From NCBI GenBank assembly GCA_944384265.1, contig CALWSR010000014.1, positions 1 through 64,000 on the forward strand: a stretch of 64,000 bases of DNA. The letters run 5' to 3'. Below the pieces are notes generated by a model. That model was given only the letters and a program-made list of their open reading frames with translations, was not told where the DNA came from and made no database searches. The DNA comes from an uncultured Clostridia bacterium (lineage in GTDB: Bacteria; Bacillota; Clostridia; Lachnospirales; Anaerotignaceae). Made by a program: the position numbers and the translations under genes. Positions 16,975 through 64,000 of this stretch are shown here, piece by piece (positions within the stretch are counted from its first letter, which is position 1; the number at the start of each line of letters is the position of its first letter).

Positions 16975-17384
16975 AACATTGTTTTTTCATTGATATGATA
17001 TCATATTTTTTTAGATACTACAACGATATGGCAATAGAGTGCTTTTAAAATTGTATATTTTCATAAAATACCCTTTTTTTGTCTATCTGCATTGAAGCAA
17101 TCACAAAACCATGCTTCTATAAAACAAACAAAAAGCTTTGCTTTCATATGAAATATGCAACTAAAATCCGTTCTCTGCATCTCTTCTCTGCCATAGCATA
17201 GCCATGGCATGAATGAAAAAAAGGGAAAAAACAATGCTTTGCAGGAAATTTAGAGGCGATGTCTTCCATTTCTTTTGCTGCTTCCCTTCAAAAGCAGTCA
17301 TACCAATTCCTTTGCTCTGCTTTAAAACATTATATTTACAATACCATATTATTTTTCCTATTCATGTAACACATCCAACAAAAA
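16975..17384 (+). repeat. Intergenic region with dispersed element, copy c
   Basis: No gene is supportable here. From about 17140 (CATATGAAATATGCAACTAAAATCCG and TTCTCTGCAT) the sequence follows the dispersed element, and it ends at 17335-17384 with the family tail (ATATTTACAATACCATATTA, then CCTATTCATGTAAC). It abuts the next copy directly. Confidence 0.5.
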
Positions 17385-17605
17385 GATTCTGTTACTTTCA
17401 TAGGAAATAGAAAGCTATGAAACATTGACTTTGCGGCTAAAACCGACTCCTTACATTTTTGTAAATCCAAAGCAAGGGACTTTGCAGCAGCTCCAAGCCC
17501 TTTGGTTACTTTCTTTTCATAAAGCAATGTCAATCTCATTGTTCTATTTTTAAAATTCATATCATACATATTATTTTTCCTATTCATATAACACCCCCAA
17601 CAAAA
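17385..17605 (+). repeat. Dispersed intergenic element, copy d (best example)
   Basis: Starts GATTCTGTTACTTTCATAGG, then AAATAGAAAGCTATGAAA, a variable middle, and the tail CATATCATACATATTATT and CCTATTCATATAAC near 17560-17592. With copy c it forms a head-to-tail pair of about 220-245 bases per unit. The minus-strand frame spells short peptide-like pieces (FHSFLFPMKVTES) also partly readable in copy a, but stops and gaps make coding unlikely. Confidence 0.6.
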
Positions 17606-52972: not shown

Positions 52973-53794
52973 AAATTATATAAACTGAAATGGTGTAAAG
53001 GCTGCTTTCTCCATGTTGGCTTGAAACAGCTTTTTTCATATTTTCCCCTTCCTATGGCTCTATACTCCATTTTTTATGGATATTTACACCATTTGCAAAA
53101 ACTATTTTGGTACCCACTTTTTATATTGATTTTGTGTTTTCATATAAAATATCCATTTTTCCGCCAAAAACCCATTTTTTCCCATACTCTTTTCATAAAA
53201 GCTCGGACAAGCATTATTTTGAAAATAAAACTGTAATTTTGTATCAAACCGTCAATGACAAAAAGCAGCTAAAGCCTCCTTATTTTTTTCACAAAGCAGG
53301 CTGGCTCCATGTATATTACAGATATCATATGTTTTTGGTCCCATAATTTTTTATATGCCATTTCTATATTGATGATACATTTTTTCTGCTGCAAATCCCA
53401 TGCACCATATTTGTTTTGCCATATCTTTTTTTACCATATCACTTCATAAAATATATTCATATTATACCATTCTTTTCTCATCAAAATAAAATTTCTTTTG
53501 CTTTGTTTTCTGTTTGATATTGTTTTATGACACAGCTTCCTATTGCTGCATACAAAATACAGACAATCTGTTTTCCATGGTATGTGTCCTATTGATTGAA
53601 AATATGTAAAAATTATACTATACTTTTATAAAATCATAGGGATGTGTTAGGTTAATATGAAAAATGATATGGCATTGAAAATGTAAATTTTAAAAACGTA
53701 CCAAAGAAATGGACGCTGCTTTTAAAAAAAAGCAAACAAAAAGATTGGGGCATTGCAGCAGTTTTCTGCAAAGGCTCTTTTGACAGGCTGTAAA
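52973..53794. other. Intergenic region, nothing supportable
   Basis: About 820 A+T-rich bases. A TTGAAA - 17 - TATACT pair (53596-53601, 53619-53624) may start a transcript with a long leader into the SUKH-like gene. No intact gene or clear repeat otherwise. Confidence 0.4.
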
Positions 53795-53870
53795 AGGGGA
53801 GAAAAGCAGAGAGGTGGATTTTGTTTCATAGCATTCTATTTCATATTCAAGTAACAAAATCAATCATAGC
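53795..53870 (-). repeat. Dispersed intergenic element, partial copy e (reverse orientation)
   Basis: Read on the minus strand it gives GATTTTGTTACTTGAATATG, AAATAGAATGCTATGAAAC and AAAATCCACCTCTCTGC, matching the lead of copies a-d and f with an internal deletion. It sits directly before the ribosome site of the SUKH-like gene. Confidence 0.5.
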
Positions 53871-53886: not shown

Positions 53887-54549
53887 ATGAAAGAATATTT
53901 TGAAATCATAAAAAAGCTTTATGGTATTGATACATTAAAAGGCTATGCAAAAGAAGAGATGGCTATTTTAAAACAAAAATTTCACCCCTTGCCCCATGTG
54001 CTGGAGGAATACTATCATACTGCCGCTCAAACTGCTGCCTCTCATTTTGTGCAGGATAACTGGATTTCTCCCCATGAGCTGACACAGCCTTATCTGGATA
54101 AACTATCAAATATATTGCCATTGCTTTATGAAAATCAAGGCATTTGTTACGCTGGTATTTTAAAAAAAGATTTATGCCTTTCCAATCCTCCTGTATACAC
54201 TTTTTATGATGATAAAACATGGGAGCTTTGCACTCCTAAATTAAATGAGTTTATACTGGCTGCATTGTTATATGAGTCTTGTTTTACATTTGAACATTGT
54301 GCAGAGGACTTTTTTTCTCTGACACAGGAGGAATTGAAAACCATACAAGCACAGCTTACAAAATATCCCTTTCAAATACAAAGCTGGATAGACCATATAA
54401 ACATTTCTTTTTATCACAATGCTTGTGATAATCTGGCTGTTGTTTTCACTTTTCAAAATGGAGATTTGCAGCTTGTTTATGGGGCCGCCAGCTTGGATTC
54501 TTACAAAGCATTGCTTTGTGTTTTAAAAAACATTGGAGAGCCTTTATAA
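53887..54549 (+). CDS. SUKH (SMI1/KNR4)-like domain protein
   Basis: 220 residues. The arrangement LKQKFHPLPHVLEEYYHTA, then LPLLYENQGICYAGILKKDL and DPPVY-like NPPVYTFYDDKTWELC, followed by EFILAALLYESCF, resembles the SUKH superfamily, found in immunity proteins against polymorphic toxins and in regulators. The start at 53887 has GGAGGG; an upstream in-frame ATG lies in the repeat. No toxin gene is adjacent, so an orphan immunity protein is one possibility. The assignment is by pattern memory and moderate. Confidence 0.5.
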   Translation: MKEYFEIIKKLYGIDTLKGYAKEEMAILKQKFHPLPHVLEEYYHTAAQTAASHFVQDNWISPHELTQPYLDKLSNILPLLYENQGICYAGILKKDLCLSNPPVYTFYDDKTWELCTPKLNEFILAALLYESCFTFEHCAEDFFSLTQEELKTIQAQLTKYPFQIQSWIDHINISFYHNACDNLAVVFTFQNGDLQLVYGAASLDSYKALLCVLKNIGEPL

Positions 54550-57380: not shown

Positions 57381-58259
57381 TCATTGCTTTTCATTTTTTG
57401 GCAAAAGCATATACCATACAGAGCCGGAAATGAATATGGAGGAATAAGCTCCTGCAATGATACCCACCATCATAGGCAGTGAAAAATCCTTTATGGACTG
57501 CACGCCCAAAATATAAATGGCGCCAATGGTAAACAATGTGGTCAGTGTGGTGTTGACAGAACGCCCCAATGTTTGGCTGATGCTTTTGTTGATTTTTTCT
57601 GCTGTTTGGTTTTTTCTAAATTTGGGGCCATTTTCTCTGATTCTGTCAAATATGACAATGGTGGAATTGATGGAATAGCCCAGTATGGTCAAAAGCACTG
57701 CAATAAAAGCATTGTTGACAGGAATGCGAAAAACAGCATAGCAGGCAATGACAACCAGCACATCATGTATCAGTGCAATAATGGCGCTGCCTCCTGCCCT
57801 CACGTCCTGAAAGCGTATGGAAATATAAATCAGCATACAAACACAGGCAATCAAAACTGCTTTGACAGCCGTCAGCTGCATTTCTTTGCTGACTGTGGCA
57901 GACACATCCTGTATGGAATCAATGCTGGCATTGGGATATTGCTCCAATATGCCTTGAGAAAGGGCTGTTCTCATTTGTCCGTCAATGGACTGCATTTTTA
58001 CAGAAACGCTGTTTGTTCCCACAACTCTTTGTACCTGAGGACTTTTTTGTCCTGTTATATCTGTAATGATTTTTGAAATAGCATCATTTGAAAAATCCTC
58101 TCCCACATGGATGCTCATGGCCGTGCCGCCTGTAAATTCCACATCAAAATTGAAAATACCCTTTCCACTGCCTCCATTTATTACCATAAAAACCATGCCG
58201 GCTAAAATAATTACAATAGATGCCGCAAAAAATCGAAATCTGTTTTCTACGATTTTCAT
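57381..58259 (-). CDS. secF: Protein translocase subunit SecF
   Basis: 292 residues, six membrane helices. The first external loop holds FDVEFTGGTAMSI, and the helix 4-6 region GYSINSTIVIFDRIRE and SVNTTLTTL are the RND/SecF signatures. With SecD it uses the ion gradient to pull exported proteins outward; in a cell with a probable Na+ ATPase that gradient could be sodium (inference). Starts with a GGGAGG site 16 bases after secD. Confidence 0.96.
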   Translation of the reverse strand: MKIVENRFRFFAASIVIILAGMVFMVINGGSGKGIFNFDVEFTGGTAMSIHVGEDFSNDAISKIITDITGQKSPQVQRVVGTNSVSVKMQSIDGQMRTALSQGILEQYPNASIDSIQDVSATVSKEMQLTAVKAVLIACVCMLIYISIRFQDVRAGGSAIIALIHDVLVVIACYAVFRIPVNNAFIAVLLTILGYSINSTIVIFDRIRENGPKFRKNQTAEKINKSISQTLGRSVNTTLTTLFTIGAIYILGVQSIKDFSLPMMVGIIAGAYSSIFISGSVWYMLLPKNEKQ

Positions 58260-58274
58260 TATTTTTCGCCTCCC

Positions 58275-59513
58275 TTACTTTGTACGCAAGCCATAAAATT
58301 TTGGATTGTTTATGCCAATATAAATCATGCCCTTTAATATCATTCTGGTAATAAAAACGGCTGTAAACATGGAAATGATAATGCCAATCATCAGTGTCTG
58401 GGCAAAGCCTTTGACTGTGCCTGTGCCAAGCCAAAAAAGCACTCCTGCGGCAATCAGCGTTGTCACATTGCCGTCAATGATGGCCGGCAACGCCCTGGAA
58501 AAGCCATTGTGTACAGAAGCCCTCAAAGAATGCCCTGCCAAAAGCTCCTCTTTCATTCTTTCAAATATCACCACATTGGCATCCACCGCCATGCCCACAG
58601 AAAGCACAATGCCTGCAATGCCCGGCAATGTCAGCGTCACATCAAAAACACTCAGTGCCAAAAGCTCCAGCCCCACATATACAGCCAATGCCCAATCTGC
58701 TGCAAAACCCAGTGCCTTATAAACAATGAGCATAAACAATAACACCAGAAAAATGCCTGCCACACCGGCCTTCAGCCCCGTAGAAAGGGCATTTGCTCCC
58801 AGCCTGGCACCCACATTTTCCATTTTCAGCACATTCAAGTTAAATGGCAAAGAGCCGGCACGAATCAAAGAGGCTGTTCTTTCTGCCTCCTCCGGTGTAA
58901 AATTTCCTGTAATCATGGCATTGCCGTCTGTGATTTCTGCATTGACCACAGGGGCGCTCACCACTTCCTCATCCAACACAATGGCAATTTGTTTTCCTAT
59001 ATTTTCTTTTGTTGCCTGTGCAAAAAGCTGTCTGCCTTCTTCTGTAAATTCCAATGAAACATAGGGCTGTGAAACACTGTTTTGAGAAACCTGTCCCACC
59101 TGTTTTCTGGCATCCGCCACCATATCTCCTGTCAAAAGCACCTCTCCTGCTTCATTTACAAATGAAAGCTGTGCTGTTTGTCCAATTTCTGCAATGGCCT
59201 CTTCTGCATTTTCCACGCCGGGAATATCCACTCGCAGACGTTTTTCTCCTTCTCTTGCCACCTCTGCCTCTGTCCAGTTATTCCAGTCCAATCTGCCTTG
59301 TATCAGTGAAACAGCCGCCTGCATTTCCTCTTGTGTAACCGTTTCTTTGTCTGCTTCATACAATATCTGTACGCCGCCGCTCAAATCCAGCCCCTGTTTG
59401 ATATTCCAGACACTGCCCAGCCTTGCTTGTCCTATGCCCTGATAAGAAACAAACGCCAGCACGCCTACCAATACAATCATGGCAAAAAGCATCACGCCTC
59501 CCTTTGCCTTCAT
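58275..59513 (-). CDS. secD: Protein translocase subunit SecD
   Basis: 412 residues, six membrane helices with a large P1 domain after the first. The typical stretch GLDLSGGVQILYEAD follows helix 1, and later P1 parts include RLRVDIPGVENAEEA and TGNFTPEEAERTASLIRAG. The VGMAVDANVVIFERMKEE motif in the C-terminal half is diagnostic. AAGGAGG precedes the ATG. First of the secD-secF-recJ run, downstream of scfB. Confidence 0.96.
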   Translation of the reverse strand: MKAKGGVMLFAMIVLVGVLAFVSYQGIGQARLGSVWNIKQGLDLSGGVQILYEADKETVTQEEMQAAVSLIQGRLDWNNWTEAEVAREGEKRLRVDIPGVENAEEAIAEIGQTAQLSFVNEAGEVLLTGDMVADARKQVGQVSQNSVSQPYVSLEFTEEGRQLFAQATKENIGKQIAIVLDEEVVSAPVVNAEITDGNAMITGNFTPEEAERTASLIRAGSLPFNLNVLKMENVGARLGANALSTGLKAGVAGIFLVLLFMLIVYKALGFAADWALAVYVGLELLALSVFDVTLTLPGIAGIVLSVGMAVDANVVIFERMKEELLAGHSLRASVHNGFSRALPAIIDGNVTTLIAAGVLFWLGTGTVKGFAQTLMIGIIISMFTAVFITRMILKGMIYIGINNPKFYGLRTK

Positions 59514-59600
59514 ACAAAAAACCTCCTTGCCGCAAAATGATAAAAATCCCTTTCAAATCAAAGGTAATTATAGTACCGCCCTACTGCTGCCGTCAATCCT

Positions 59601-60956
59601 TTATTCCTCCAATAATTCCTTTGCTTTTATCATAATGGCGCACTCGATTCTTTTTTTCTGCATGGCACAGCCAATTTCATAAGGCTTCAAAATATCTTTG
59701 TTTTGCTCATAAGCATTTGCCGCACAGCCTCCGCTGCAATAAAATTTTGCCCAGCAGCCTTTACACTCTTCTTTTGCATAAACATTACACTTTGAAAAAA
59801 TTTCTCTTTTTGCTTCATTTGTAACACCTTCTTCCACAGTACCCATTTTAAACTCCTCCAAGCCCACAAATTGATGACAGGGGTACAATTCTCCCGAAGG
59901 CGTCACAGCCAGATATTCTGTACCGGAGCCGCAGCCTGCCAAACGCTTCATCACACAGGGGCCTCCGCTTAAATCAATGTTGAAATGGAAAAATTGGAAG
60001 TCCTCTCCGGATTTTTTTCTTTCATAAATTTCTTTTGCCAGCTTTTCATATTCTGCAAATATCTGTGGCAAATCCTCTTCTGTAATGGCATAGGGCATTT
60101 GTTTTTCTGCCACAACAGGCTCCACAGAAATCTGCTTGAAGCCTAAATCTGCAATATGCATAACATCCTTTGAAAAATCCAAATTATATTTTGTAAAAGT
60201 ACCTCTGATATAATAATTTGTTTGGTTTCTGCTTTCTGCTGCCTTTTGAAATTTTGGCACAATCACATCATAGCTGCCCTGTCCTCCGGCACGGGGACGC
60301 ATATTGTCATTGATTTCTTTTCTGCCGTCCAGACTCAGCACCAAATTGTGCATATGCTCATTGATAAAATCCAGCTTCTCTTCATCCAGCAGCATACCAT
60401 TTGTGGTGATGGTAAAACGAAACCTTTTATCATGCTGTTTTTCCAGTTCTCTGCCATATGCCACCAGCTTTTTTACCACCTCAAAATTCATAAGAGGCTC
60501 TCCTCCAAAAAAATCCACCTCCAGATTTTTGCGGGAGCCTGCATTTTTTATCAAAAAATCCAGTGCCTTTTTGCCCACCTCTTCACTCATCCATTCTCTT
60601 TTTCCATGATACTCCCCTTCCTGTGCAAAGCAATACTGACATTTTAAATTGCAGTCATGGGCCACATGCAGACAAAGGGCCTTCACCACAGGATTTCTTT
60701 TGTCCATCAAAGGCAATATTTGCTGATAATCGTCTTCTGTATAGAGCATACCTTCTTTTTCCAGCATCTGAAGCTCCTGCACCGCTTCGTCAATTTCCTC
60801 CATGCTGTAACATGGAAATTTCAGCTGCAAAGCATTTTTAGGCACTTGCTTCCATTGGTCTGCCAAATCATATACAATGTCATCCACCACATGAATTGCA
60901 CCGCTATTGACGTCCAATACAATATTTACACCATTTTGAGAAAATTTATGTATCAT
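59601..60956 (-). CDS. scfB: SCIFF peptide radical SAM maturase
   Basis: 451 residues. An N-terminal RRE-like peptide-binding region (about 1-85), then the radical SAM cluster motif CNLKCQYC (CxxxCxxC, about residue 104), SAM-binding FFGGEP, and a C-terminal SPASM domain with cysteines in GGPCVMK, GCGSG, LYPCHQF, CNVYAKEECKGCWAKFYCSGGC in part. In known members it forms a thioether (Cys to Thr) crosslink on the SCIFF peptide. The ATG at 60956 has AGGAGG. The precursor gene lies 268 bases upstream. Confidence 0.96.
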   Translation of the reverse strand: MIHKFSQNGVNIVLDVNSGAIHVVDDIVYDLADQWKQVPKNALQLKFPCYSMEEIDEAVQELQMLEKEGMLYTEDDYQQILPLMDKRNPVVKALCLHVAHDCNLKCQYCFAQEGEYHGKREWMSEEVGKKALDFLIKNAGSRKNLEVDFFGGEPLMNFEVVKKLVAYGRELEKQHDKRFRFTITTNGMLLDEEKLDFINEHMHNLVLSLDGRKEINDNMRPRAGGQGSYDVIVPKFQKAAESRNQTNYYIRGTFTKYNLDFSKDVMHIADLGFKQISVEPVVAEKQMPYAITEEDLPQIFAEYEKLAKEIYERKKSGEDFQFFHFNIDLSGGPCVMKRLAGCGSGTEYLAVTPSGELYPCHQFVGLEEFKMGTVEEGVTNEAKREIFSKCNVYAKEECKGCWAKFYCSGGCAANAYEQNKDILKPYEIGCAMQKKRIECAIMIKAKELLEE

Positions 60957-61103
60957 GCTTTTTCCTCCTAACATTCACTAGCTTTTGTTGCTTTTATATA
61001 AAAAATAGTATTGCTGCGGTCGCCTTTTTTCAAACGGCCTCTCCTTCCTTTTTCATAAGAGAATACCATAGATTTTACAAAATCATTTTTTCATTTCATA
61101 TAA

Positions 61104-61124
61104 AACCAACAGCTATTATACCAT
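61104..61124 (-). promoter_or_regulatory. Extended -10 promoter of scfB
   Basis: Minus-strand TGG-TATAAT (61124-61116) with no strong -35, about 160 bases before the scfB start and just after the scfA terminator. Confidence 0.5.
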
Positions 61125-61154
61125 AATATTACAATATTGATTTACTTTGTGAAA

Positions 61155-61198
61155 CAAAAAGAAAGGCCATTTTCTGCTTTGGAAAACAACCTTTCTGC
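61155..61198 (-). terminator. Terminator between scfA and scfB
   Basis: On the minus strand AGAAAGGTTGTTTTC pairs (with G-U pairs) with GAAAATGGCCTTTCT, followed by T's. It separates the abundant-peptide gene from its maturase gene. Confidence 0.8.
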
Positions 61199-61223
61199 AT
61201 CCCCTTTTTACAATACAAAACAA

Positions 61224-61364
61224 TTATCTTTGTTCACAGGATTGGTTTGCCACAGTGCAAGATGTTTTGCAGGCAGACTGACAAGATGTCTGGCATTCGC
61301 CGCAGCCACCTGTTGCCACTGTTTTTTTCAGCATTTTTGTATTCAGTGTTTTTATATGCTTCAT
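61224..61364 (-). CDS. scfA: SCIFF ribosomal peptide precursor (six cysteines in forty-five residues)
   Basis: 46-residue peptide, too short for ordinary gene calling. A basic leader MKHIKTLNTKMLKKTVATG is followed by a core with six cysteines: GGCGECQTSCQSACKTSC and VANQSCEQR. The pattern and the adjacent scfB identify SCIFF, nearly universal in Clostridia; its biological role is not established. AAGGAGG lies 9 bases before the ATG, and an extended -10 TGGTATAAT at 61412-61407 lies about 45 bases upstream. Confidence 0.97.
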   Translation of the reverse strand: MKHIKTLNTKMLKKTVATGGCGECQTSCQSACKTSCTVANQSCEQR

Positions 61365-61406
61365 TTGTATAGCCTCCTTAAAGTAAAAATATTGTAAATT
61401 CGGTTT

Positions 61407-61415
61407 ATTATACCA
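61407..61415 (-). promoter_or_regulatory. Extended -10 promoter of scfA
   Basis: TGG-TATAAT on the minus strand (61415-61407) between the TIGR04086 gene and scfA. The same TGG-TATAAT element precedes scfB. Confidence 0.55.
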
Positions 61416-61445
61416 TGAAATATCCTTTTTGAAAATAGATTATTA

Positions 61446-61892
61446 CTATTTTTTCATATTGATGCCCACAATGCCGCCAACACCGCCGCCTGCCGCTGCC
61501 AAAAGCAGCATCAGTGCCTTGGAGCCCATGACTGTAAAACCACTGCCTGCTATGCCATCCAGCAAAAATAATATAGCTCCATAACAAAGCCCTGCCAATA
61601 TGCCCCAAAAAATGCCCCTTGCCTTGGCACATCTTGCCCAGTCAAAGCCTGCAATGGCCGCCGATACCACAGTACAGCAAAGTGCTACAAGGGGTATTTT
61701 TTCTTCTGTCATATCTGTATAGGTTAAAACAATGCCATATGTAATAAATATAATGCAGGTGAGAGCATATGCCATCACCATGCCTTGCAGCATACAAAGA
61801 GCCTGATTTGTACCAGTCTCCTTTTTTGTTTTATTTTTTGCTGTATCTTTTCTTTTTGCAATTTGCTTTTTTTCTTTTTTATCCACTGCCAT
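61446..61892 (-). CDS. TIGR04086 family membrane protein
   Basis: 148 residues. A lysine-rich cytoplasmic N-terminus (VDKKEKKQIAKRKDTAKNKTKK) is followed by four hydrophobic helices: MVMAYALTCIIFITYGIVL, VALCCTVVSAAIAGF, GIFWGILAGLCYGAILFLL and ALMLLLAAAGGGVGGIVG. The small-residue-rich last helix and the neighbourhood upstream of scfA-scfB-secDF match TIGR04086, a clostridial family of unknown function that recurs beside SCIFF genes. Its role in that system is untested. Confidence 0.82.
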   Translation of the reverse strand: MAVDKKEKKQIAKRKDTAKNKTKKETGTNQALCMLQGMVMAYALTCIIFITYGIVLTYTDMTEEKIPLVALCCTVVSAAIAGFDWARCAKARGIFWGILAGLCYGAILFLLDGIAGSGFTVMGSKALMLLLAAAGGGVGGIVGINMKK

Positions 61893-62078
61893 GCCTCCTG
61901 TTTTTTATTTTATTCTATGACAACAAAAAAAGGAATATGACAGCTCGGCATTGTATTGAAAAAACCGTCAAAAAATGTTACACTTTTTACATTCTATATT
62001 TTTTCAAATCTGCTTATGCCATGGTGACTGCATATAAGCTGTATCAAAACCATTTTTTTGGAAAGGAAGGTGGCTGCA

Positions 62079-62941
62079 TTGCCTTATAAAACAGTGGATT
62101 TACATTGCCATTCCTATTATTCTGACGGCACCTTTTCTCCGGAGGCCCTTGTCATAGAGGCAAAAAAAAGAGGGCTTTGGGCATTGGCACTGACAGACCA
62201 TGACAGCATAGATGGCATTTCCCTTTTTCATCAGGCAGGAAAAAAGCATGGTTTTGAAACCATTACAGGCATTGAGCTTGCCGCCGAATACACTGCCTTT
62301 CAAAAACAGGAAATACACATAGTGGGGCTGGGGTTTTCTCCTTTTTCCCAAGCTATTGCAGAAATTTTGGAAAAGCGGCACTTTCCCGCAAAAAACGCAA
62401 TGAAGAAATGGTTTCTGCCCTCAATCAAATTGGTTTTGCCATTTCCTATGAGGAAATAGAGCAAAATGCAGGAGGCAATGTCATCACCAGGGCCCATTTT
62501 GCCAATGTTTTGATAAAAAAGGGGATTGTAAAAACAAAAAAAGAAGCATTTGCAAAATATCTCTCCAAGGGAAGGCCGGCCTATGTGGACAGAGCATTTT
62601 TAAGCCCTGCTCTTTGTGTGGAAGCCATCAAAAAAGCCAATGGTGCGGCTGTGCTGGCACACCCCACTCTGTATGCCATGGACGATACACAAATAGAGCA
62701 TATGGCAAAGGAGCTGAAAGCATATGGTCTGGATGGCATAGAAACAGACTATTCTACCTACTGCTCTGCCCAAAGACAGAAAATGACAGATATGGCAAAA
62801 CGGCTGCAGCTGCTTCCCTGCGGAGGAAGTGATTTTCATGGAAAAAATAAACCAGATATTCATTTGGGTGTGGGCAGAGGAAATTTGCACGTTCCCTATT
62901 GCTATTGGGAGGAGCTGAAAAAACGCTGTGCCATGCCCTAA
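62079..62941 (+). pseudogene. PHP-domain phosphoesterase (RNase AM/YciV type), frameshifted
   Basis: The 5' frame reads YKTVDLHCHSYYSDGTFSPE (HxH metal site), ALALTDHDSIDG and TGIELAAEY, as in PHP phosphoesterases acting on 3',5'-bisphosphates or RNA ends. Near 62390 the frame must change by one base: adding a T to the TTTCCC run restores SRKKRNEEMVSALNQIGF, after which VITRAHFA, AVLAHP and GGSDFHG complete the family to the stop at 62941. The start is probably TTG at 62079 (site AAGGAAGGTGG). Either a real inactivation or a sequencing error in a homopolymer. Confidence 0.85.
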
Positions 62942-63092
62942 CCCTCTTTGTATACATTGGCCAAAAAACACAGCAGTACCATTAAAAATACTTTTATAAA
63001 GGGACTGCAGCAACATGGGATATGCTCAGTGTTTTGATATGGGTCATTGTTTCAAGTCAATACATTTTTTATAAAAAGGAGTGTTTTGTATT

Positions 63093-63569
63093 ATGTCTAT
63101 TGAAAAAGTAAAAAATTATTTAAAAGAATTTGGAAGAGAGGATGTTTTAGAGTTTGAAACCTCCTCCGCCACTGTGGAATTGGCTGCCCAGGCTGCGGGG
63201 GTCATTCCTGCCCGTATTACAAAAACATTGGCATTTCAGTCCGAAGATGGCTGTATTGTGGTTGCTGTGGCAGGAGATGCCAAAATTGACAACAAAAAAT
63301 TTAAAGATACCTTTTCTATCAAAGCAAGAATGCTTTCTCCAGAGCAAACTCTTGCCTTCACAGGCCATGCTGTGGGAGGGGTATGTCCTTTTGCACTGCC
63401 TTCTACGGTAAAGGCCTATGCCGATGTTTCTTTAAAACGCTTTGAAACCGTATTTCCTGCTGCCGGCAGCAGCAATTCTGCTGTGGAAGTAACCTGCGAG
63501 GAGCTTTTTCAATACGGACGATGTGAAAAATGGGTGGATGTCTGCAAGGGCTGGGAGGAAAATGCGTAG
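63093..63569 (+). CDS. YbaK/EbsC-family aminoacyl-tRNA deacylase
   Basis: 158 residues of the YbaK/ProX fold, which hydrolyses mischarged aminoacyl-tRNA (often Cys- or Ala-tRNA-Pro). The conserved lysine is in ITKTLAFQ, and GGVCPFALP carries the GxxxPxG-like loop. The start at 63093 (MSIEKVKNYL) has GGAG upstream; an in-frame GTG four codons earlier overlaps that site. Which tRNA it edits is unknown. Confidence 0.88.
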   Translation: MSIEKVKNYLKEFGREDVLEFETSSATVELAAQAAGVIPARITKTLAFQSEDGCIVVAVAGDAKIDNKKFKDTFSIKARMLSPEQTLAFTGHAVGGVCPFALPSTVKAYADVSLKRFETVFPAAGSSNSAVEVTCEELFQYGRCEKWVDVCKGWEENA

Positions 63570-63603
63570 TCTCATAATGCCCACATTTTTAGTAGGATTT
63601 TTA

Positions 63604-63632
63604 TTGCGAAATAAAAAAAGATGTGCTACACT
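63604..63632 (+). promoter_or_regulatory. Promoter of the Rrf2-family gene
   Basis: TTGCGA (63604-63609), 17-base spacer, TACACT (63627-63632), about 50 bases before the ATG. Confidence 0.65.
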
Positions 63633-63681
63633 GTAAAAAAACAGTCAAGCCATATAACAACAATAGAAATGGTGGGATTTT

Positions 63682-64000
63682 ATGAAAATATCAACAAAAG
63701 GACGCTATGGTATTCGTCTTATGATTTGTTTGGCATTGCAGTATGAAAAAACAAGCCATATCCCTCTCAAAACCATTGCACAGCAGCAAGAGATTTCAGA
63801 AAAATATCTGGAGCAAATTATCAATCCCCTTACAAAAGCGGGATTGGTTAAAAGCTTTCGAGGCGCCCAGGGCGGCTACTCTTTGATAAAGGACCCTTCA
63901 GAAATCACAGTAGGCTCTATACTGCGTATTTTAGAAGGCTCTCTTTCCCCTGTGGACTGCTTGGAGCATAGCCCCTGCAAAAGGGCTGATGTATGCGCTT
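63682..64000 (+). CDS. Rrf2/IscR-family transcriptional regulator (partial, runs off window)
   Basis: First 106 codons of a winged-helix regulator: MKISTKGRYGIRLMICLALQ, recognition helix around ISEKYLEQIINPLTKAGLV in part, the wing FRGAQGGYSL, and SPVDCLEHSPCKRADVC with three cysteines spaced as in the [2Fe-2S] ligand region of IscR. Such proteins control iron-sulfur cluster assembly genes, which could lie just beyond the right edge. GGTGGG precedes the ATG. The C-terminus is not in the window. Confidence 0.88.
   Translation, partial: MKISTKGRYGIRLMICLALQYEKTSHIPLKTIAQQQEISEKYLEQIINPLTKAGLVKSFRGAQGGYSLIKDPSEITVGSILRILEGSLSPVDCLEHSPCKRADVCA

Follow-up and report, generated by a model that had tools for sequence, protein, structure and literature searches.

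SCIFF gene layout and a MITE-like scfB leader next to the Shine-Dalgarno sequence in an uncultured Clostridia bacterium

The SCIFF peptide locus

In the stretch of 64,000 nucleotides analysed here (the window), the gene of the SCIFF ranthipeptide precursor, scfA, and that of its maturase, scfB, are separated by a terminator, and the same extended -10 sequence is found 5' of both. Does this arrangement reflect separate control of peptide and enzyme that is common to SCIFF loci, or is part of it peculiar to this genome? The genes follow one another on the minus strand in the order TIGR04086, scfA, scfB, secD, secF, with these features:

61446..61892, minus strand: gene of a TIGR04086 family membrane protein, upstream of scfA (NCBIfam TIGR04086, 71.6 bits, cut-off 30)
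61407..61435, minus strand: scfA promoter, TTTTCA-17-TATAAT, with TGG preceding the -10 element
61224..61364, minus strand: scfA, SCIFF ranthipeptide precursor of 46 aa (TIGR03973, 86.8 bits, cut-off 50)
61150..61196, minus strand: intrinsic terminator 3' of scfA, a stem at 61196-61160 plus a T run
61115..61123, minus strand: extended -10 sequence TGGTATAAT 5' of scfB, adjoining the inserted element; no -35 element in the promoter scan
60981..61116, minus strand: scfB leader, apparently a degenerate copy of a MITE, with its gene-proximal (A) end at 60981 and its distal (B) end at about 61111-61116
60964..60968, minus strand: scfB Shine-Dalgarno sequence GGAGG, beginning at nt 13 past the A end of the MITE (most often nt 14 in the family)
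59601..60956, minus strand: scfB, radical SAM/SPASM SCIFF maturase (TIGR03974, 744.8 bits, cut-off 425)
58275..59513, minus strand: secD, downstream neighbour (TIGR01129)
57381..58259, minus strand: secF, downstream neighbour (TIGR00966)

The scfB product stayed below the cut-off of the not_ScfB model NF040492 (610.9 versus 855 bits). Its start was placed at the ATG at 60956, which is supported by the Shine-Dalgarno sequence; the mechanical open reading frame extends to 60974. As at the known ranthipeptide loci of the CteA-CteB and Tte1186a type, a TIGR03973 precursor accompanies a TIGR03974 maturase and the conserved Cys32-Lys-Thr34 region is present; unlike those loci, the window has a local promoter-like site and an apparent MITE leader in front of the maturase gene. 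Passages in the reviews PMC8326336 and PMC8102284 credit Chen et al. 2020 with a quorum-sensing role for SCIFF, so that the original prediction, which called the function of SCIFF unknown, is partly outdated on this point.

A passage in PMC8326336 also raises a discrepancy as to whether Thr34 or Thr37 is the thioether acceptor. Thr34 was found in all 75 aligned precursors (one of 76, which has no CGEC, was excluded), whereas position 37 is occupied by Thr in 63 of them, by Gly in 11 and by Ser in one. Since Thr34 is invariant and Thr37 variable, the alignment favours Thr34 as the probable general acceptor. One precursor (L042) carries Ser at both the Cys32 and the Thr37 positions.

Two other genes near the locus deserve mention. 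A PHP-domain phosphatase gene (62058-62941, plus strand) is split into overlapping frames, 62058-62459 and 62408-62941, each of which matches part of the same families. A gene for a CymR/IscR-type Rrf2 regulator (63682-63999, plus strand) begins at the edge of the window, near the locus of this cysteine-rich peptide.

Terminator and promoter-like sites across SCIFF loci

SCIFF was present in 52 of 60 genomes, with the genome of the window counted. From 98 loci gathered, the 76 distinct ones with usable scfA, gap and scfB start served as the comparison set. The median distance between scfA and scfB in this set is 109.5 nt; in the window it is 267 nt.

The intrinsic terminator that had been proposed to part the two genes is borne out. 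In the window it consists of a 15-pair stem (61196-61160, minus strand) followed by TTTTTGTTT, with a minimum free energy of -19.3 kcal/mol (z -2.1; equalled by 6 of 200 shuffles). A hairpin with a T run was found in the scfA-scfB gap of 67 of the 76 loci, as compared to 4.45 +- 1.9 in dinucleotide shuffles, and a terminator-like hairpin within 120 nt upstream of scfA in four.

The identity of the two extended -10 elements was also correctly noted, as TGGTATAAT is present at both 61407-61415 (scfA) and 61115-61123 (scfB) on the minus strand, but the likeness of the two sites ends with this 9-mer. The scfA site has a -35-like TTTTCA at a 17-nt spacing and agrees with the -35 and -10 consensus at 10 of 12 positions in all, while at the scfB site the promoter scan listed no -35 element, the best-spaced candidate by eye being AAATCA. 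TGGTATAAT occurs four times in the window against 0.51 expected, a count reached in none of 100 shuffles, which makes it appear to be a usual type of promoter in this genome.

Across loci the two sites part company. With an extended -10 element defined as TGN plus at least five of six hexamer positions, such elements were found upstream of scfA in 65 of 76 loci (6.3 +- 2.5 in shuffled sequences) and in the gap before scfB in four, which is the chance level (3.05 +- 1.8); perfect elements precede scfB in two loci, against 0.45 in shuffles. Scoring of σ70-type -35/-10 pairs gave the same picture. At a score of at least 9, 69 of the 76 loci had a hit upstream of scfA (22.5 in shuffles) and 12 in the gap, again the chance level (13.7). 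At a score of at least 10 the numbers were 66 versus 4.2 upstream of scfA and 6 versus 2.7 in the gap, where the shuffle maximum was 5; given this small excess, a promoter before scfB may exist in a few loci.

Does scfB then own a purposeful promoter, by which enzyme and peptide would be regulated separately? The site itself and the terminator in front of it are both present in the window, and two other loci have something comparable before scfB: the congener L034 a weaker TGTTATGAT, and L064 a perfect TGGTATAAT. Against this stand the chance-level count in the comparison set, the lack of a -35 element in the scan, and three congeners without an extended -10 element at this place (L009, and L011 and L014, whose gaps measure 92 and 88 nt). 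We consider such a dedicated promoter unlikely. The terminator between scfA and scfB and the strong scfA promoter are conserved features, and the promoter-like site before scfB that matches that of scfA is a local one rather than part of a conserved design; the site may nevertheless be a promoter in this genome. Of the deliberate uncoupling of peptide and enzyme levels suggested earlier, the part that stands is thus the conserved terminator and scfA promoter, and the part that does not is a matching scfB promoter.

Since the terminator and the scfA promoter are conserved and the scfB promoter is not, an excess of precursor would probably be secured by termination, with scfB transcribed mostly by read-through. 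The common layout, in which a strong promoter of the extended -10 type precedes scfA and an intrinsic terminator parts it from scfB, would accordingly make precursor mRNA abundant and enzyme mRNA scarce, the latter arising by read-through in most relatives. For SCIFF, the conserved parts (promoter of the precursor gene, terminator, enzyme) are now set apart from the local ones.

The TIGR04086 membrane protein next to scfA had been put forward as a partner of SCIFF. Its gene adjoins scfA in 29 of the 52 SCIFF-bearing genomes, and the two families occur together more often than expected (Fisher p 0.027; both figures from a hand count with the genome of the window included). TIGR04086 was found in 54 of the 60 genomes, however, that is in 49 of the 52 SCIFF-bearing ones and in five of the eight others, and the Bacillus subtilis control gave a TIGR04086 match and no SCIFF match. 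The case for a dedicated partner is weak, and the juxtaposition is better described as a conserved neighbourhood.

The scfB leader and the MITE family of this species

A search with the scfB leader retrieved many partial inverted-end matches from the same genome. The end motif derived from this family matched the genome 113 times and, as a reversed pattern, once; for the A-end motif the counts were 149 versus 12. Each of 39 other genomes had at most 11 matches to the end motif, and each of four congeners 5-11. The ends have the form GATTCTGTTACTTTAATATGAAA and GGATGTGTTRCGTTAATATGAAA, and in 34 copies they are paired less than 400 bp apart, with 124-257 bp between the end motifs.

It is a general trait of MITEs that the target is duplicated. 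In 62 two-ended copies the flanking 8-mers agree at 386 of 496 positions, as opposed to 181 +- 11 (maximum 215) in shuffled pairs, and in 21 copies the duplication is exact (8/8). With this agreement, which we read as target duplication, and with their terminal inverted repeats, the repeats are MITEs. Their interior is highly variable; the small open reading frame in the scfB leader and the frames leaving the A end were rejected as conserved coding sequence, being broken in many copies. When one copy was used as the blastn query, no match was obtained in plasmid and phage collections. Other bacterial MITEs are likewise non-autonomous and bounded by terminal inverted repeats; they differ from this family (MITEBth2 and MITEHarch3, named as IS6-family MITEs in a passage of PMC6807381, included) in that the present copies are numerous, confined to a single species and anchored at Shine-Dalgarno sites.

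Further copies are found within the window itself:

53640..53861, plus strand: second MITE copy, with an 8/8 target duplication, AATCATAG

Past its A end GGAGG begins at nt 14, in front of a gene whose ATG is at 53887. More copies lie at 17131-17407, where one end abuts another past the 8-bp duplication TTTTTGTT. An end pair 5352 bp apart on C5 was considered as an autonomous element and turned out to be a tandem duplication containing MITEs; in this region (L177, G000:C5:39500-55500) at least 7.4 kb are directly duplicated with 100% identity, which may be an artefact of assembly.

The scfB leader, from about 60981 to 61116, is by its sequence apparently a worn copy of this family. Its A end fits the degenerate motif without mismatch, it shares 83% identity over 45 nt with another copy (E 2e-5), and 124 bp separate its terminal motifs. 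The orientation scorer initially assigned this copy backwards. In an alignment with four congeners most of the leader stretch is missing from them; by eye, L034 shows TGTTATGAT and ATAGTGAA at the places taken in the window by TATAATAG and, past the element, TAGTGAAT. One might argue that the likeness is fortuitous, since the stretch is short and degenerate, its distal end is imperfect and no clear 8-bp duplication can be recognised. A chance origin is nonetheless very improbable in view of the perfect A-end motif with an inverted partner 107 bp off, the absence of most of the stretch from congeners, and a Shine-Dalgarno sequence that is only one nucleotide nearer than the family mode.

Taken as a MITE copy, the leader would separate the promoter-like site from the Shine-Dalgarno sequence of scfB in this species. 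Since the -10 hexamer (61120-61115) abuts the element, a transcript from this promoter, if it is used, would start inside the MITE, and transcripts that reach scfB would carry a largely MITE-derived leader. The ends of the copy can pair in RNA (z -1.8; 12 of 200 shuffles fold equally well), and in the predicted fold GGAGG stays outside the long stem. The MITE may affect the expression of scfB.

Related insertion sequences and the choice of target

The spacing seen at scfB recurs throughout the family. We collected 97 distinct gene-proximal (A) ends with at most two mismatches, which are most, not all, of the ends matched in the genome. In the flank of these ends G is found at nt 14 in 76%, at nt 15 in 84% and at nt 17 in 74%. 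The best match to AAGGAGG starts at nt 12 in 47 ends (at nt 11-13 in 60), at nt 7-10 in 20 and elsewhere in eight, and the motif is absent (fewer than five of seven positions) in nine. In 55 of the 97 one of the tetranucleotides GGAG and GGGG begins at exactly nt 14, against a background of 0.5% per position; 42 do not have it at this exact position, and four of these abut another MITE copy. These four abutting ends were not scored for a following open reading frame; in the others the tetranucleotide is at nt 14 in 49 of 70 ends preceding a frame and in six of 23 remaining ones. Among the 34 paired copies, a Shine-Dalgarno sequence with a start codon lies past the A end in 29 and past the B end in one, and this single case is the scfB copy that the scorer had reversed.

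Which transposase could have moved these elements? Two decayed insertion sequences (IS) in the genome share the MITE ends (L183, 853-2092, and L184, 866-1976), and a third transposase fragment is found on C50; the transposase search of this genome returned no intact autonomous copy. A stop-free piece of L183 matches DDE_Tnp_IS240 (PF13610, E 5e-16) and, more weakly though above the cut-off, PF03050 (IS66, E 1.3e-6), and a separate stop-free piece matches Zn_ribbon_InsA (PF03811, E 7.7e-7). No Mutator-type transposase was matched in Pfam at E <=0.1 by the stop-free IS pieces searched.

Related IS with open transposase frames measure 1226-1351 bp and are flanked by exact 8-bp duplications. Of 16 distinct insertions in which both ends and the duplication were resolved by script, some of them decayed, 13 have GGAG or GGGG at precisely nt 14 counted from the transposase-5' end, and none has it at the opposite end. 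Twelve of the 15 insertions outside the genome of the window fit, L229 being the one within it; the misses are L259, L260 and L263. In G637, a genome of three contigs with 11 copies of a 1226-bp element with open transposase frames, each of the 11 distinct insertions is flanked by exact duplications, with GGAG at nt 14; at the opposite end neither tetranucleotide was found in any of the 11, and one has GGGAA. With both sets pooled, the site is found at the transposase-5' end in 24 of 27 insertions and at the other end in none. At 25 further IS loci judged by eye at the 5' end only, 10 fit, one is a repeat, three misfit and 11 are unjudgeable; L246 and L249 (flank the same as L263) lack a Shine-Dalgarno site at nt 14 in this reading. 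As a control, short IS6 copies had the site at neither end in any of four cases (by eye; four of five loci resolved, three from one genome) and no recognisable duplication, in what is a small sample.

Passages in PMC6807381 describe a clostridial IS6 group with a zinc-finger extension, with transposases of 340-353 aa, lengths of 1226-1349 bp and, where recorded, 8-bp duplications; its members ISCpe7, ISClte3, ISCbo1, ISTps1 and ISNth1 form clade VII there and clade h (340-350 aa) in the corresponding part of PMC7986276. The elements studied here resemble them in the zinc-finger extension joined to an IS6/IS240-type DDE domain, in the length of about 1.2-1.35 kb and in the 8-bp duplications. 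The best explanation of these likenesses is that a zinc-finger IS6-like group resembling ISFinder clade VII/h either mobilised the MITE family or gave rise to it. In contrast to the present elements, which have a Shine-Dalgarno sequence at a preferred distance and in a preferred orientation, the clade VII/h passages state no target rule, and the word "Shine" does not occur in the main text of either paper. At the level of titles and beginnings of abstracts, with clade VII element names included, we found no description of Shine-Dalgarno-targeted transposition.

The MITEs and IS of this group share the spacing, the orientation preference and the 8-bp duplication. We propose that the IS6-like group picks its targets by a purine motif, usually the Shine-Dalgarno sequence itself, and that insertion would duplicate 8 bp and leave a given end of the element 8+5 nt ahead of GGAG. 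Since this end comes to lie 13 nt before GGAG, neither the ribosome-binding site nor the coding sequence is disrupted, which would limit harm to the host. GGAGG would presumably be recognised directly as DNA by the transposase, perhaps through the zinc-finger extension.

Insertion might instead be random, with only sites just upstream of a Shine-Dalgarno sequence being tolerated or useful. Insertions into coding sequence would be deleterious, 70 of the 97 MITE ends do precede a frame, and loss of in-gene insertions by selection inflates the counts in front of genes. Survivorship of this kind would not by itself produce a single orientation with so sharp a peak of spacing, other intergenic positions should be no less tolerable, the tetranucleotide also stands at nt 14 in the six ends noted above that have no frame behind them (though the frame filter may have missed some), and the G637 copies fit without exception and with exact duplications. 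We therefore hold it to be very unlikely as the explanation. Least probable of all is that the repeats are conserved 5'-UTR regulatory RNAs preceding Shine-Dalgarno sequences and no transposons: they do lie mostly in leaders, and in the scfB copy the ends can pair and the fold is slightly better than in shuffles, but their flanks carry 8-bp duplications that vary in sequence, their ends are those of IS copies around a very variable interior with unconserved frames, and Rfam gave no match at E up to 1 over 59000-64000 of the window. Besides transposing, the elements may also have a regulatory function.

Joined together, a common SCIFF layout, a MITE in the scfB leader and a zinc-finger IS6-like group addressed to Shine-Dalgarno sequences make up the account that we regard as quite likely. 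A broader version, in which the whole zinc-finger IS6-like clade is so addressed and mobile MITE leader cassettes supplied about 100 genes of this species, including scfB, with new leaders and changed their expression, is offered tentatively and appears doubtful to us. If Shine-Dalgarno targeting holds, insertion sites could be predicted from sequence, 5' leaders would be rewired by it, and the ribosome-binding-site address would be a safe-site strategy usable before many genes, comparable to that of promoter-targeting elements. TnGBS and ISLre2 elements, according to passages in PMC3942029, insert 15-17 bp upstream of the -35 element of σA promoters. Oriented insertion at a set distance is common to these elements and ours; TnGBS, ISLre2 and ISKra4 have Mutator-type transposases and a σA promoter target, whereas here the transposase belongs to another family and the target is the Shine-Dalgarno sequence.
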